Assembly (NCBI RefSeq): GCF_900890425.1
Contig: NZ_CAAHFG010000005.1
Coordinates: 248,001 to 312,000 of the forward strand
Origin: Pontiella desulfatans
GTDB taxonomy: Bacteria; Verrucomicrobiota; Kiritimatiellia; Kiritimatiellales; Pontiellaceae
Direction of reading: 5' to 3'
Length of the DNA: 64,000 nt
The notes beneath the pieces are model-generated. The model worked only from the letters and a program-made list of their open reading frames with translations, made no database searches and had not been told where the DNA came from. The translations under genes and the position numbers were made by a program. Positions 829-53,190 of this stretch are shown here, piece by piece. Position 1 is the stretch's first letter; every line of letters starts with the position of its first letter.

Positions 829-3648
829 ATGAAAAAATGGATGATTAGTTTAGTTGCCGGGCTGGCGGTTTCTCCTTTTGGAGCACCGGGTGCGGAGCGG
901 ATTTATCTTTCGGGCCAGGGGCCGTCGGACGCGGTGGAGTGGGACTTCATCTGTTCCAAAGGCCGCAAGAGCGGGGAGTGGACGAAGATCCCGGTGCCGT
1001 CCAACTGGGAGCAGGCGGGGTTTGGCAATTATAACTATGGCCACGACGACCCCGCGACAAAACATGATGAGACCGGCACCTACCGCACCTCCTTCATGGT
1101 TCCCAAGGATTGGCAGGAAAAGCATGTGCGCCTGGTCTTTGAAGGTTCCATGTCGGAAACCTCGATCAAGATCAACGGCAAGAGCGTAGGGACTCCAAAC
1201 CTCGGGGGCTACCTGCCGTTCCGCTACATTCTGAATAAAAAATCCAATTTGAAATATGGTGGGGAAAACACACTCGAAGTATTGGTGAAGAAAAAACCGG
1301 AGAACAGCAGCCTCGACCAGGCGGAACGCAAGGGCGACTACTGGGTGTTCGGCGGCATCTACCGGCCGGTCTATCTGGAGGTGCAGCCGAAGGAATTTGT
1401 CAATCGCTTGGCGATTGATGCCAGGGCCGACGGCACGCTGCGCCTCGATGTTTTTCCCCAGGTGCAGCATGAGAGCCGGTTCTGGAAAAAATCGAAGGGT
1501 TACGTTGACGAGCTCGTCGCGCAAGTCCAGACGCTGGAAGGCGAAAATGTGGGCCAACCCATGACGGCGGAAATGCACAATGGCACCGGCCGGATTCGTT
1601 TAAACACCAAAATCAAAAACCCGAACCTTTGGTCGCCGGAATATCCGAATCTCTACCAGGTCAAGGTCACCCTGAAGAAGGACGGGGAAATCCTGTCGGA
1701 AAAAACGGAGCGCTTCGGCTTCCGGACATTCGAGCTCCGGCCTCGGGATGGCCTATATCTGAATGGAAAGAAAATCATGGTTCAAGGCGTGAACCGCAAT
1801 GTCTTTGATCCCCGGCATGGCCGCGCCGTGGATGCCGAAAAGGTTTGGAACGATGCCCGTGCGATCAAGGCGATGAATGCCAACCTGGTGCGTTCCCACA
1901 TGCCGCCGACGACGGAGTTCATGCGGGCCTGCGATGAGCTGGGCCTGATGGTGATCACCGAGCTGTGCAACTGGCACGATCCCTATATCGACACGCCGAT
2001 TGCGCGGAACATCGCCTATGAAATGGTGGTCAAATACCAGAACCATCCGTCGGTTGTTCTCTGGGCGAACGGCAATGAAAACGGGTTCAACCTGGAGATT
2101 GACGAGCTGTATCCGCTCTATGATCTTCAAGATCGCCCGGTGATTCACCCATGGACCTATTTTGACGGGATCAATACGTTCCACTATCCGGATTGGAAAG
2201 CGTTGCAGGTGCAGCTCAACCGACCGGCGGTCTATCTGCCGACCGAGTTCCTGCATGGCCTTTACGACGGCGGGCACGGCGCCGGGCTGGAGGACTATTG
2301 GAACGCCATGCGCGCAACTCCGACCTCGGCCGGTGGCGTGCTGTGGTGCTGGGGCGATGCCGCACTCATGCGTACCGACCAGGATGGCGAGCTGGACACG
2401 GCCGGCAACCAATCGGCCGATGGCATCGTTGGCCCTTACGGGGAAAAGGAGGCATCCTATTATTCCGTCCGCGAAATCTGGTCGCCGATCCAAATGGCGA
2501 TGCCCCCGGATTTCGAAGGCAAGCTGGAACTTGAAAACCGCTACCATGAAACCGGCCTCGAGGAATGTTTGTTTGAATGGCGCTTGGTGAACTTTGCGGC
2601 ACCGTTCGCCACCACCGTCGAAACCACGGTGGTTGCCGAAGGGAAGCTCCAGGGGCCGAAGATCAAACCCGGCAAAGTGGGAGCTCTCCAGCTTCCGCTT
2701 CCCAAGGATTGGAAAGAGGTCGACGGCCTGGAGTTGCGAGCACTCGGCAGCAACGGAGTGGAAATCATGCAGTGGGCATGGCCGTTGAAGGTAGCTCGCA
2801 TATCTGATGCGAGTTTGTCCGAACGCGGATCGGATATCCGCGCTACACAGGGTGCAGAAACCGGGTTCCATTTTAAAATTGGCGATACCGAATGGAGGTT
2901 TTCCAAAACAACCGGACAGTTGCTGGGCGCTTCAGTCGATGGAAAAGATGTCGGACTTGGGATGGGGCCGATCCTCTATGCCGGCACGCTGGATGAAGTG
3001 CTGGAATTTTCCACGGACTGGAAGGCCGAGGTTTCGGAAAAGGATGGGGCGGTGGGCATCCAATCCGGGAATTCGGACGGTTCATCCTTCAAATGGACGC
3101 TTTCGGACGACGGCACCGTGGCGCTCGATTATTCGTTTGCCGCACTGACCAACGAGCTGGCCTATTGCGCGGTCGGCTTTGATCTCGCCGAGGAGAAGGT
3201 GGTCTCGAAACGCTGGCTGGGGCAGGGGCCGCACCGCATCTGGGGCAATCGGCTGAAGGGGCCGCAATTCGGATTGTGGGAAAATGAATACAACGATCGC
3301 ATTACCGGCGTGGACTGGGGCGAGCCGGAATTCAAGGGCATTTTCGGGAACGTGGACTGGATGCAGATAGGCCTTTTGGATAATTCCTCGCTGCTGGTTG
3401 ATCCTGATAGGTTCTCGTCCGTTGGTGTGTTGCTGCCGAGAAATGCGGAGGGCGAGCGCAATAAGAAAACATACACCAGTCCGATCCACGCCTGGTGGCA
3501 CTATCCGGAAGCGGGCGGGCTGCATCTGTTCCACAAGCTTCCGGGAATTGGAACCAAGTTCGCGAACGCCTGGGAGCTCGGCCCGCAGGGGTCGCCAAGC
3601 GTGGTCGAGGGACCGATCAAAGGACGGGTTGTGTTTCGGGTGAGATGA
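829..3648 (+). CDS. Exported GH2 beta-galactosidase-like glycosidase
   Basis: A 939-residue glycoside hydrolase family 2 protein. The start at 829 is chosen because it opens a signal peptide ([21 protein letters not shown]) and has an AGGTG site upstream; a longer in-frame start at 739 would read through a palindromic repeat. Sugar-binding, immunoglobulin-like and TIM-barrel domains follow in the usual GH2 order. The acid/base Glu is about residue 417 (in WANGNENG) and the nucleophile Glu about 473 (in LPTEFLHG). The C-terminal third is a LacZ small-chain-like beta-sandwich. Oddly, residues 655-673 are encoded by an intergenic-type repeat lying in frame. Likely role: removal of beta-linked galactose from galactan fragments outside the cytoplasm. 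Confidence 0.9.
2791..2846. repeat. Twin-hairpin repeat copy 1, inside the GH2 gene
   Basis: It begins GTAGCTCGCATATCTG and ends GATATCCGCGCTAC, matching the intergenic copies at 7496, 20404 and 34491. It holds two 7-bp hairpins (CTCGCAT/ATGCGAG and CGCGGAT/ATCCGCG) with 5-nt loops ATCTG and CGGAT, which can pair with each other including one G-U. It is read through in frame as [19 protein letters not shown]. Confidence 0.92.
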
Positions 3649-3725: not shown

Positions 3726-4143
3726 ATGACGTGTTCTGGATTAGCGATGGTGCTGTTGTGTGTTGGGAGTTCCGCGCTCGCCGTGGCGGGCAAGCCGAAT
3801 GTGGTGCTTATCCTGTTGGACGATGTCAGCCATTATTCAGTGTCCGCGTATGGTGCGGAATCGATCAGCTGCGACCATCCAACGGAGCCATTCGAAAATG
3901 TGCCATTCGCGACGCCCCGCATGGATAGCTTGGCTGAAGAAGGCGTCCGGTGTGATTTGGGCAAGCGGCAATCCGGAAATCGCCACCGTGGATAAATTCG
4001 GCGTGCTGCATGCGCACCAGGCGGGCGAGGTCATCATCAACACCTATTCCTGGGACGATGCCAACCCCTCCGCAAAGAACGAAGGGGAGACCTATTCAAC
4101 GTCCGGCATTAAAGGTGAGGTGCGGATCGTCATCGCGGAGTAG
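3726..4143 (+). pseudogene. Sulfatase N-terminus joined out of frame to a Big2-like domain end
   Basis: From ATG 3726 a signal peptide and a sulfatase start are clear ([17 protein letters not shown], then [13 protein letters not shown]), but the frame closes at 3995 before any CxPxR active site. In the next frame, from about 3945 to 4143, the sequence turns into a bacterial Ig-like (Big2) end: [20 protein letters not shown], then a beta-rich tail ending EVRIVIAE. The simplest reading is a deletion that joined the first 70 or so codons of a sulfatase to the last 65 of a surface or adhesin-type protein, with a frame break at the join. No functional product is expected. Confidence 0.8.
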
Positions 4144-7480: not shown

Positions 7481-7495
7481 CTGGGCGCCGGGGCG

Positions 7496-7558
7496 GAGCT
7501 CGCATATCTGATGCGAGTTTCCGCCGAGTGGGAAACGCGGATCGGATATCCGCGCTAC
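7496..7558. repeat. Twin-hairpin repeat copy 2
   Basis: It begins GAGCTCGCATATCTG and ends GATATCCGCGCTAC, 16 bp after the sulfatase stop. It has the two hairpins with complementary 5-nt loops (ATCTG/CGGAT) seen in copy 1, joined by a 14-15 nt linker that differs between copies. Confidence 0.92.
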
Positions 7559-14916: not shown

Positions 14917-15043
14917 TACCAAATTAAACTGATTTGTATTTTTTACCACAGAGTTCACTGAGACGCAGAGGGTGGCAGATATATTGGTTGCTCTGTGCCT
15001 CCGTGCGCTCTGTGGTGAGACTCTTCAGGTTAATTGCCTATAA
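14916..15043. repeat. ACCACAGAG-family palindromic element
   Basis: It starts ATACCAAATTAAACTGATT, carries ACCACAGAGTTCACTGAGAC and its approximate reverse GCGCTCTGTGGTGAGAC, and ends CAGGTTAATTGCCTATA. The layout matches 21859-21985, so this is a copy of a roughly 125-bp element with weak terminal inverted repeats. It begins right at the sulfatase stop codon. Confidence 0.85.
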
Positions 15044-17400: not shown

Positions 17401-17506
17401 TCAGTTTAACCACAGAGCACTCAGAGACACAGAGGAGCGGGGTTGGCATATTTCTCTGTGCCTCCGTGTCCTCTGTGGAGAGACCATTCAAGTCAAGTTC
17501 CTGTGA
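17401..17506. repeat. ACCACAGAG-family palindromic element
   Basis: Arms AACCACAGAGCACTCAGAGA and CCGTGTCCTCTGTGGAGAGA pair around GGGGTTGGCATATTTC; the end CATTCAAGTCAAGTTCCTGT matches the copy ending near 21985. Confidence 0.85.
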
Positions 17507-20403: not shown

Positions 20404-20467
20404 GTAGCTCGCATATCCGATGCGAGTTCACGCTGCCCAGGAAACGCGGATCGGATATCCGCGCTAC
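20404..20467. repeat. Twin-hairpin repeat copy 3
   Basis: It begins GTAGCTCGCATATCCGATG and ends CGGATATCCGCGCTAC. Hairpin loops are ATCCG and CGGAT, exactly complementary. The linker between hairpins has its own sequence. Confidence 0.92.
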
Positions 20468-21858: not shown

Positions 21859-21985
21859 GATACCAAATTAAACTGATTCGTTTTTTTACCACAGAGGGCA
21901 CTGAGGCACAGAGGAGCGGGGTTGCTATATTTCTCTGTGCCTCAGTGTCCTCTGTGGTGAGACCATTCAAGTTAAGTTCCTATGA
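21859..21985. repeat. ACCACAGAG-family palindromic element, fullest copy
   Basis: Starts GATACCAAATTAAACTG, core ACCACAGAGGGCACTGAGGC pairing with GCCTCAGTGTCCTCTGTGGT, ends CAAGTTAAGTTCCTATGA. The outermost parts are weakly inverted (11 of 16 positions), so the unit may be a miniature mobile element. Confidence 0.85.
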
Positions 21986-22009
21986 TTCGTGCAATAACTT
22001 GCCACATCC

Positions 22010-22192
22010 GTACTACTATCCGTCAATTTCTTGTTTTCCTGGCAAATTTTTTACCACCCGCTGCGCTAGAGGACTCTGAGGCACAGAGGGTTAGGATGCT
22101 CTGTGTCTCTGAGATCTCTGTGGTAAAAAATCCGTGTCTTCGGTGTTCATCTGTAGCTTCATATAATTTGGTTGCGGCACCGCTGCTCCAGG
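22010..22192. repeat. 183-bp segment duplicated at 52979-53162
   Basis: From GTACTACTATCCGTC to CACCGCTGCTCCAGG the two copies differ by one inserted C and one A/T change. It contains a CTCTGAGGCACAGAG / CTCTGTGTCTCTGAG palindrome, so it is a larger member of the ACCACAGAG family or carries one. Confidence 0.95.
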
Positions 22193-32058: not shown

Positions 32059-33358
32059 AACCCTTCTGAAAACATCGGCGGTCGCCGGAACCGCTTTCTC
32101 GATTCTTCCCGCCTGGGGGCAGGCCGCACCTTCGAAGCGCGTCAACATGGCGATGATCGGGGTCGGGCGCCAGGGAACCAACGCCAACATGGGAACCTTT
32201 CTTGGGATGGACAACGTCCGGGTCGTCGCCGTTTGCGATGTCGATCGCCTGCGCATGGTTCACGCCAAGAAAAAGGTGGACGAACGCTATGGCGACACCG
32301 CCTGCAAAATCTTCGGCGACTTCCGCGAGGCACTTGAACTGCCGGGGCTGGACGCCGTCATGGTTTCCACCACCGACCATTGGCATGCCATCATTGCGCT
32401 CGCCGCCATGAAGAAGGGACTGCACGTCTGCTGCGAAAAGGCGATGACGCGCTATTTCGACGAAGGCCGCGCGCTGGCCGACATGGCGAAAAAGAGTGGC
32501 GTGGTTTTCCGCCTCGATAGCGAATGCCGTTCGCACGCCTACATGCAGAAGACCGCCAACCTGGTGAAGAACGGATACATCGGAAACATTACCCGAATGG
32601 AAGTGGGGGTTCCGGTTGAATTCCAAAAGGGCGGTGGTGATCCCGCAGTGGTTCCCGTTCCCGAATATCTGGATTATGAAATGTGGCAGGGGCCGGCGCG
32701 GTTGCGGCCCTATTCGGTGGATCGCGTCCACAAGACCAATCCCGAAACCGGCGCGTGGATGGGGCGTCCCGGCTGGTTGCGTCTCCAGGACTATTGCTCC
32801 GGCATGATCTGCAATTGGGGAGGGCACCTGATCGATGTCGCCAACTTCATCAATGGTACCAGCCACACGGGCCCCGTTAGTTGCGAAGGGGCGGGATCGT
32901 TTGATTCGGGAGGTCTATGGGACACCATCAACGCGTTCGAGCTGCAATATAAATATGCCAACGGCGTGGTCATGGATTACAAGATCAAGGTGCCGTATCT
33001 GCGCATCGAAGGCGACGAGGGCTGGATCCAGGCGCATTGGCACAGCGAAGGCGGCCTGCAGGCGCACAACAAGGAAATTTTCCGCACCAAGTTCAGGGAG
33101 ACCGACACGATGGTTCCGAGTCGTTCCGATAAGCGCGACTTCATCTCCGCCATTACCGAAGGCACGCCGGTCATGATCGATGCCGAGGCTGGGCACCGCG
33201 TCAACTCGCAATGCCTGCTCGGCCTCGCCACCGTCAAGGCCGGGACGCGGCTCGAGTGGGATCCGAAAACCGAGAAGGTGACCAACAGCGCCAAGGGCGA
33301 AGCGGCCATGAAGGAAACCTATCACCGCGGCGAATGGAAGCTGGAGAACTTCATTTGA
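32045..33358 (+). CDS. Gfo/Idh/MocA-family oxidoreductase with Tat-like signal
   Basis: A 437-residue NAD(P)-dependent sugar dehydrogenase-type protein. The N-terminus has a twin-arginine-like leader (NNRRTLLKTSAVAGTAFSIL), usual for PVC members of this family. The nucleotide-binding fold follows (NMAMIGVGRQGTNANMGTF, VVAVCDVD). TTDHWHAIIALAAMKKGLHV and CCEKAM replace the usual EKP motif region, with Lys retained. GGHLIDVANF gives the conserved His. It overlaps both neighbours (14 bp upstream, 4 bp downstream) and is tightly co-expressed. It probably oxidises or epimerises the sugar handled by this operon. Confidence 0.88.
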   Translation: MNNRRTLLKTSAVAGTAFSILPAWGQAAPSKRVNMAMIGVGRQGTNANMGTFLGMDNVRVVAVCDVDRLRMVHAKKKVDERYGDTACKIFGDFREALELPGLDAVMVSTTDHWHAIIALAAMKKGLHVCCEKAMTRYFDEGRALADMAKKSGVVFRLDSECRSHAYMQKTANLVKNGYIGNITRMEVGVPVEFQKGGGDPAVVPVPEYLDYEMWQGPARLRPYSVDRVHKTNPETGAWMGRPGWLRLQDYCSGMICNWGGHLIDVANFINGTSHTGPVSCEGAGSFDSGGLWDTINAFELQYKYANGVVMDYKIKVPYLRIEGDEGWIQAHWHSEGGLQAHNKEIFRTKFRETDTMVPSRSDKRDFISAITEGTPVMIDAEAGHRVNSQCLLGLATVKAGTRLEWDPKTEKVTNSAKGEAAMKETYHRGEWKLENFI

Positions 33359-34494
33359 AAATCGAAACGGTAGAGGTCTTCCCGCTCGAATATCCAACCA
33401 AGGGCTACTTTAAGTTTTTCACCACGCCGCTCGGCCATTCCGGCCGCCCGGCGGTGATGATCAAGTTGACGACGGCTGACGGGCTGGTCGGTTGGGGGCA
33501 GGCGGTGCCCATTGCAACATGGTGTTCGGAAACATTGGAAGCTTCGGTCATTGCCCTGAAAAACTATTATGCACCGTCGCTGATCGGGCAGGAGATCGAA
33601 ACCATTGCCGATGCCCACCTGATCATGGAAAAGGCGATCCGCCCCGAATTTTCCACCAGCATGCCGTTGACGCGCGCCGGGATCGACATGGCGCTGCACG
33701 ACCTCTTCGGCAAGGCGCAGGGCCAATCGTTGGCCGAACTGTGGGGGCGTCCGCGCCGCGGCAGGATGGAGTTAAGTTGGACGGTCAATGTGACCTCGCT
33801 CGACGGTGTCGGGGAATCGGTCAACGCAGGCAAGCGCTTGGGCTACCGCCACTTCAACGTCAAGGTTGCCCCCGATCCCGTGTTCGACCTCGAGGTGGTG
33901 AAAATGGTGCGCGATGCCGCGCCCGACGGTTTCTTGTGGACCGATGCGAATACGGCCTACACGGTCGACGACGCCTTGTCGGTTGCGCCCAAACTGGCCG
34001 ACCTCGGCGTACAGGTTTTTGAATCCCCGCTGCCGCCCAACCGCATTAGCGGCTATCAGGCGCTGAAGAAACAGGGGGCACTGGATGTCTACATGGATGA
34101 GGGCGTTGTCAGCCCCGTCGAGTTGGAGGAGTTCATCAAACTCGGCATGCTCGACGGCATGGCGATGAAGCCCTCGCGCTGCGGGGGGCTGACCTCCAAC
34201 AAGCGGCAGATCGAACTCTGCATGGAGCACGGCCTCAAGTGGGTGGGCAGTGGCCTGTGCGATCCCGACCTCTCGCTCGGCGCGGCGCTCTCTCTCTACG
34301 ATGCCTTCGGCCTGCCCGAAGCCGCGGCGCTCAACGGCCCGCAGTTCCTCGATGCCTCGGTGCTCAAGAATCCCGTCGTGATCGAAAACGCGGTCGCCGA
34401 AGTTCCCGACGGCCCCGGCCTGGGACTGGAAGTGGACGAAGAAAAACTAAATGCCCTGTCTGCCGAAACGGCGGAGAGGTGGGGATTGAAGTAG
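33355..34494 (+). CDS. Enolase-superfamily (mandelate racemase-like) dehydratase or cycloisomerase
   Basis: TTG 33355 overlaps the previous stop (TTGA) and has GGAG upstream, giving 379 residues. KIETVEVFPLEYPTKGYF is the capping-domain start. The barrel has HFNVKVA where the superfamily has KxK (first Lys replaced by Asn, catalytic Lys kept). The metal ligands are Asp in LWTDANTAY, Glu in QVFESPLP and Asp-Glu in VYMDEG. Lys in MAMKPSRCGG sits where MLE-type enzymes have a catalytic residue. Family members dehydrate sugar acids or isomerise their lactones; a 3,6-anhydro-galactonate cycloisomerase role would fit the galactan setting but is inferred. The stop codon is supplied by the repeat at 34491. 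Confidence 0.85.
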   Translation: MKIETVEVFPLEYPTKGYFKFFTTPLGHSGRPAVMIKLTTADGLVGWGQAVPIATWCSETLEASVIALKNYYAPSLIGQEIETIADAHLIMEKAIRPEFSTSMPLTRAGIDMALHDLFGKAQGQSLAELWGRPRRGRMELSWTVNVTSLDGVGESVNAGKRLGYRHFNVKVAPDPVFDLEVVKMVRDAAPDGFLWTDANTAYTVDDALSVAPKLADLGVQVFESPLPPNRISGYQALKKQGALDVYMDEGVVSPVELEEFIKLGMLDGMAMKPSRCGGLTSNKRQIELCMEHGLKWVGSGLCDPDLSLGAALSLYDAFGLPEAAALNGPQFLDASVLKNPVVIENAVAEVPDGPGLGLEVDEEKLNALSAETAERWGLK

Positions 34495-34553
34495 CTCGCA
34501 TATCCGATGCGAGTTGTTGCAGGCAGGGAACGCGGATCGGATATCCGCGCCAC
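34491..34553. repeat. Twin-hairpin repeat copy 4, overlapping a stop codon
   Basis: It begins GTAGCTCGCATATCCGATG and ends GGATATCCGCGCCAC. Loops ATCCG and CGGAT are complementary. The TAG of the upstream gene (34492-34494) lies in the first bases of the repeat. Confidence 0.92.
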
Positions 34554-52933: not shown

Positions 52934-52937
52934 TTTT

Positions 52938-53190
52938 TTTACCACAGAGGGCGCCGAGATCACCGAGGAAAAGCCTCTGTACTACTATCCGTCAATTTCT
53001 TGTTTTCCTGGCAAATTTTTTCACCACCCGCTGCGCTAGAGGACTCTGAGGCACAGAGGGTTAGGATGCTCTGTGTCTCTGAGATCTCTGTGGTAAAAAA
53101 TCCGTGTCTTCGGTGTTCATCTGTAGCTTCAAATAATTTGGTTGCGGCACCGCTGCTCCAGGCTCTCCGTGTCCTCTAGCGAAGCGGGAG
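52938..53190. repeat. Repeat block including the second copy of the 183-bp segment
   Basis: It begins TTTTACCACAGAGGGCGCCG, then at 52979-53162 carries the near-identical copy of 22010-22192, and ends with CTCTCCGTGTCCTCTAGCG, the far arm of an ACCACAGAG palindrome. The duplicated segment therefore sits inside another family member. Confidence 0.93.

Follow-up and report, generated by a model that had tools for sequence, protein, structure and literature searches.

An in-frame REPIN at a predicted inter-domain loop of a GH2 glycoside hydrolase gene in Pontiella desulfatans

What happens to a protein when a repeat that normally lies between genes is read as part of it? The question is raised by a GH2 glycoside hydrolase gene at one end of a stretch of 64,000 nucleotides from Pontiella desulfatans (contig NZ_CAAHFG010000005.1, positions 248,001 to 312,000), referred to here as the window. 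An earlier note on this DNA had reported a full twin-hairpin repeat lying in frame within the gene. Its coordinates, 2791-2846, are exact, and the repeat makes up codons 655-673. Very probably, a repeat of the REPIN type moved by a RAYT transposase landed in the loop between domains 4 and 5 of the enzyme, where its 19 codons stand in place of about 12-15 and are tolerated.

The repeat is complete and consists of two inverted REPs with GTAG feet, an arrangement known as a REPIN (Bertels and Rainey 2011, PMC3116915) or BIME. Its 56 nt read GTAGCTCGCATATCTGATGCGAG-TTTGTCCGAA-CGCGGATCGGATATCCGCGCTAC. Both arms have the GTAG foot, 7-bp stem and 5-nt loop that define a GTAG-type REP. When folded, a single strand forms a pair of hairpins with an energy of -16.1 kcal/mol (z -3.4), which beats 200 of 200 shuffled sequences. 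At up to 3 mismatches each half has 4 matches in the window, against 0 expected from shuffles. The element begins precisely at a codon boundary, and the 19 residues read from it include VARISDAS...DIRAT. Because the reading frame passes through the foot as GTA-GCT, the TAG of GTAG is avoided.

Table 1. Features of the GH2 locus, other REPINs in the window and the RAYT locus elsewhere in the same genome (G000).
Feature	Position	Strand	Evidence
GH2 glycoside hydrolase, LacZ-like, 939 aa	829..3648	+	Pfam PF02836, PF02837, PF00703; fold matches
Variable linker W651-F680	2780..2867	+	alignment, residue counts, low pLDDT
REP arm 1, T-type, GTAGCTCGCATATCTGATGCGAG	2791..2813	+	GTAG foot and hairpin CTCGCAT-ATCTG-ATGCGAG; exact family consensus
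Spacer TTTGTCCGAA, 10 nt, shortened	2814..2823	+	comparison of 32 two-arm copies
REP arm 2, G-type, inverted, GTAGCGCGGATATCCGATCCGCG	2824..2846	-	GTAG foot and hairpin CGCGGAT-ATCCG-ATCCGCG; exact family consensus
REPIN, intergenic	7495..7558	+	matches to both arms
REPIN, intergenic, within composite repeat of roughly 175 bp	20404..20467	+	matches to both arms
REPIN whose GTAG gives the TAG stop of gene 33211-34494	34491..34553	+	matches to both arms, orthologue
RAYT-like gene	G000:C1:389732-390319	-	tblastn with known RAYTs on REPIN loci
Split REPtron, REP arrays on both sides	G000:C1 about 387.2-390.8 kb (L094)		RAYT cut by IS66-family element

The same arms recur throughout the genome, which comprises 8.66 Mb in 6 contigs. 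Arms of the form GTAGCKCGNATRTCYGATNCGMG have 54 exact matches and 92 within 3 mismatches, compared with 2 for a reversed-pattern control; the Y-variant pattern of arm 1 alone has 32 exact matches. They build about 35 multi-arm loci with one arm order throughout. Clean two-arm inverted elements of the REPIN or BIME form number 32, each with a T-type arm first and an inverted G-type arm second. Fifteen of these are 64 nt long and five are 63 nt, with a spacer that in most copies measures 17-18 nt and has the form TTCCCG...GGAA. The GH2 copy is only 56 nt long because its spacer is shortened. Since both of its arms equal the family consensus, it is plausible that this copy is recent.

The host gene is uninterrupted from its ATG to its stop, so the observation that the protein stays open to its end holds. 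Its 2_C, 2_N and GH2 domains exceed the Pfam cut-offs, and both expected catalytic glutamates are found, in GNEN and PTEF. An AlphaFold2 model of the protein (19 sequences) has a mean pLDDT of 80, and its top structural matches are the beta-galactosidases 6sd0, 3bga and 1dp0, LacZ among them. In this model, one beta-sandwich ends with strand 645-652, 680-684 is the first long strand of its successor, and residues 655-673 sit between these two strands. Confidence falls below a pLDDT of 50 at residues 660-668 and is low also at 674-677. The model thus agrees with the earlier placement of the repeat between two beta-sandwich parts. Given the LacZ-type beta-galactosidase fold match, the site would correspond to the loop joining domains 4 and 5 in the domain naming used for LacZ.

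Orthologues of the gene from seven members of the same genus (77, 76, 69, 68, 68, 59 and 57% identity) were compared, together with others from bacteria further removed; none of this set carries REP DNA in the gene. Because no orthologue carries the REPIN, the comparison supports its arrival in the GH2 gene after the split from the nearest relatives. The earlier note had left open whether the repeat was tolerated as a surface loop or was recent. Both halves are favoured to some degree: a late arrival in a tolerant loop is supported by the orthologues and the low pLDDT, and recency is plausible.

How much the linker has changed can be seen by counting residues between the fixed positions W651 and F680, which avoids any choice of alignment. 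The GH2 protein has 28 residues here, compared with 21-24 in the seven nearest orthologues and 24-31 in outgroups. Only 9 of the 28 lie outside the REPIN. No linker as short as 9 residues was found in any of 18 relatives, whose range is 21-31. With the REPIN codons left out, a tree places the GH2 protein with those of genomes G016 and G021 within a short-linker clade (7-row clade 100/99). Taken together, these counts and the tree position indicate that the REPIN stands where relatives have about 12-15 linker residues, with a net gain of 4-7. Relatives had been expected to show a gap of about 19 residues; alignment and counts give the smaller net difference, and a plain 19-residue insertion does not describe a site at which they have 12-15 other residues.

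A copy of the REPIN would have entered the DNA coding for the domain 4-5 loop, and the end state is 19 REPIN-derived codons in place of about 12-15 original ones, reached either in one step or by insertion combined with an earlier or later deletion. At the 76-77% identity of the nearest orthologues, either route would fit. About equally probable with a direct replacement is a path with the same end state, in which the REPIN was simply inserted into a linker already about 9 residues long, or flanking codons were lost later. Deletions have occurred at the site, given that the GH2 copy has lost about 8 nt of spacer relative to the usual element of 63-64 nt, and linker length is free to drift, as the spread among relatives illustrates; the plain insertion, however, starts from a linker length that none of those relatives has.

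Whichever path was taken, replacement of loop codons by a REPIN seems to have been tolerated for three reasons. The domain 4-5 loop already varied in both length and sequence. On either strand of the element, the two frames that avoid the TAG of GTAG tend to be open; of the six frames, three or more are open in 30 of the 32 two-arm elements, and four in most. Finally, the net change in length is divisible by three. A full 64-nt copy at this site would move the frame by one, while the present 56-nt state is in frame. An enzyme carrying the REPIN codons would then still work.

Two other readings concern what the insertion means for the gene, and both are improbable. The REPIN might have been kept because it is useful, for instance as an mRNA hairpin or a better linker. 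The gene is indeed open and both hairpins are intact, but a recent copy would equally have intact arms, and the loop is unconserved. The chance is just as slim that the gene has been inactivated and its decay is yet to come, a reading that nothing but the insertion itself favours. Against it stand the open frame of 939 codons, the retained catalytic glutamates and the number of lineage-specific changes 3' of the repeat (2 in the GH2 gene compared with 1-5 in five nearby orthologues), which shows no excess. The GH2 protein looks intact.

Elsewhere in the genome the family behaves differently. By a codon-usage gene call, under which 86% of the window is coding, 34 of the 35 multi-arm loci are intergenic, in keeping with the earlier note's term for the repeat, and the GH2 copy is the sole intragenic one. 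The family is strongly depleted from genes and predominantly extragenic. At about 15 loci, single-arm loci counted, the TAG of GTAG is the exact stop codon of a neighbouring gene. An example for this can be found in the window at 34491-34494, where the gene and its nearest orthologue (66% identity) end within a few residues of each other, which puts the repeat at the end of the gene as the source of its stop; the orthologue uses a TGA of its own. The family is therefore biased toward DNA between genes and toward gene ends, many copies being found at the 3' ends of genes. That insertion is actively targeted to inter-domain linkers, a question that the earlier note had raised, is unsupported and very improbable: the GH2 copy does sit between two domains, but only this one locus among about 35 is intragenic, about 15 start or end exactly at a gene stop, and selection against insertions elsewhere in genes accounts for a single surviving linker case.

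A more general proposal is that REPIN insertion in the Pontiella lineage is an exchange, in which a few tens of target bases are removed on entry. This is rather unlikely. If it were true, the element would bring a ready-made loop of 19 codons to replace the one in a gene and, at a gene end, would put in its own TAG stop.

Several other copies were considered as intragenic cases. A second in-frame candidate, close to the N-terminal end of a secreted protein (L108, C1:3394141), was rejected, because homologues do not cover the first residues and the start codon may follow the repeat. Intragenic single arms at L103 and L112 (3 mismatches each) and L129 (2 mismatches) were dropped because the reversed-pattern control gives matches at about that level; the gene hit at L112 reads like one for a threonyl-tRNA synthetase. 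In genome G012, REP pairs adjoin another GH2 gene (L042) but are not in frame with it. Separately, the REPIN at L126 (G000:C4:726017-726080) stops 3 bases 5' of a likely start codon, at the expected ribosome-binding site.

Some copies lie within a longer repeat of roughly 175 bp, with the layout CTAGGTTTTTTCC...GATGCMAAGCC-REPIN-GCCGRACAACATGTTGTT...GGAAGGGCCTA. It occurs at window 20404-20467 and at L110, L117, L119, L123 and L106. Because the REPIN is contained in this repeat, a longer element may have carried some copies along as it spread.

A REPIN is non-autonomous and would be moved in trans, as a single-stranded hairpin, by a RAYT (REP-associated tyrosine, HUH-type) transposase. In other REPtrons, RAYTs have been shown to recognize the GTAG foot and to cleave and join single-stranded REP DNA (PMC8266576). 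A search near 19 Y1_Tnp loci found none with the GH2-type REP family, which suggested that the family was an orphan. This idea was dropped when tblastn found a divergent RAYT-like gene that Pfam had missed. A 12-arm array of GH2-type REPs lies directly upstream of it. A C-terminal remnant of it, found at a distance of 2.3 kb, contains the tyrosine helix RKYIRENP and is directly followed by a 3-arm copy of the repeat. The two pieces are parted by an IS66-family element of 2331 nt with an 8-bp target duplication, AGAGTTGG, so that an HVH motif is seen in the RAYT fragment and the tyrosine helix lies beyond the insertion. The fragment scores under the curated cut-offs (57 of 80 for NCBIfam NF047646, 19.4 of 23 for Pfam Y1_Tnp).

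Relatives carry comparable genes. The RAYT of genome G012 is 65% identical, unsplit in one frame and has HUH and tyrosine motifs; it falls below the NF047646 cut-off (72 of 80) and passes that of Pfam Y1_Tnp (30.6 of 23). Copies of GTAGCGCGGATATCCGATCCGCG flank it on both sides. The REPs that flank those of G007 and G021 (60% and 56%) are related in sequence. A REPtron, that is, a RAYT flanked by the same REPs, is thus found in G000 and G012, and the pairing of RAYT and REP in four genomes supports a RAYT-driven spread of the family, which would include the insertion of the GH2 copy. The split gene is the probable mobiliser. Being cut by an IS66-type element, it is probably inactive now, which has probably left the family stranded. 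The genome holds other RAYTs, so a rescue in trans may be possible. One of them (L084, G000:C1:3786435) has its own, unrelated GTAG REP array, GTAGGGACGACTGTCCTCAGTCGTCC.

Like the REPINs and BIMEs described previously (PMC3116915), the family consists of inverted GTAG palindromes with a variable spacer, is dispersed in moderate copy number and is linked to a RAYT. It differs in forming about 35 loci in a Pontiella-like genome, with arms of two types (T and G), and in having a RAYT split by an IS66 element and one intragenic copy.

REP dimers inside genes have been described before. Di Nocera et al. (2013, PMC3733652) found GTAG REP dimers within ORFs, with the highest numbers in Opitutus terrae (Verrucomicrobia); these dimers code for about 20-30 aa, and linkers or loops were suggested to tolerate them. 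The authors also noted that REP termini often give the TAG stop of a neighbouring gene. The GH2 REPIN resembles these dimers in lying wholly inside an ORF, where it codes for 19 aa, and the same genome has TAG stops formed by GTAG elsewhere. In-frame intragenic REP pairs are therefore already published, Verrucomicrobia included, and the GH2 case is a further example. It goes beyond the published dimers in that orthologues and a structure model place it in an inter-domain loop and show it standing where relatives have about 12-15 other residues.

Rickettsia palindromic elements (RPE) are an older example of in-frame palindromic repeats, found in many unrelated genes (PMC10969869, PMC3733652). 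The likeness is one of behaviour only, namely in-frame palindromic insertion. RPE are described as about 150 bp long, and RPE-4/6 are tagged by CGTC; judged from these descriptions, the GH2 REPIN, with 56 nt and a GTAG rather than a CGTC foot, lies outside both RPE-4/6 and the longer RPE-1.

The GH2 case adds resolution from orthologues and structure, a length shortfall and a split REPtron. With orthologues to compare on either side, it illustrates the traits of an intragenic insertion that is tolerated: a flexible loop, an open frame, a net length divisible by three, and loss of the original linker. Together with its unsplit relative, the IS66-split RAYT provides a usable system for studying REPIN insertion and the fate of REPINs after loss of the transposase.

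Two further features of the window lie outside this family. At 3726-4143, a sulfatase-like N terminus (signal peptide plus about the first 60 residues) breaks off and gives way, in another frame, to a coding-like stretch unrelated to it; the region resembles what is left of a gene. A separate family of intergenic inverted repeats, ACCACAGAG...CACAGAG / CTCTGTG...TGTGGT, occurs at 14938-14971, 17403-17435, 21882-22131 and 52935-53101.
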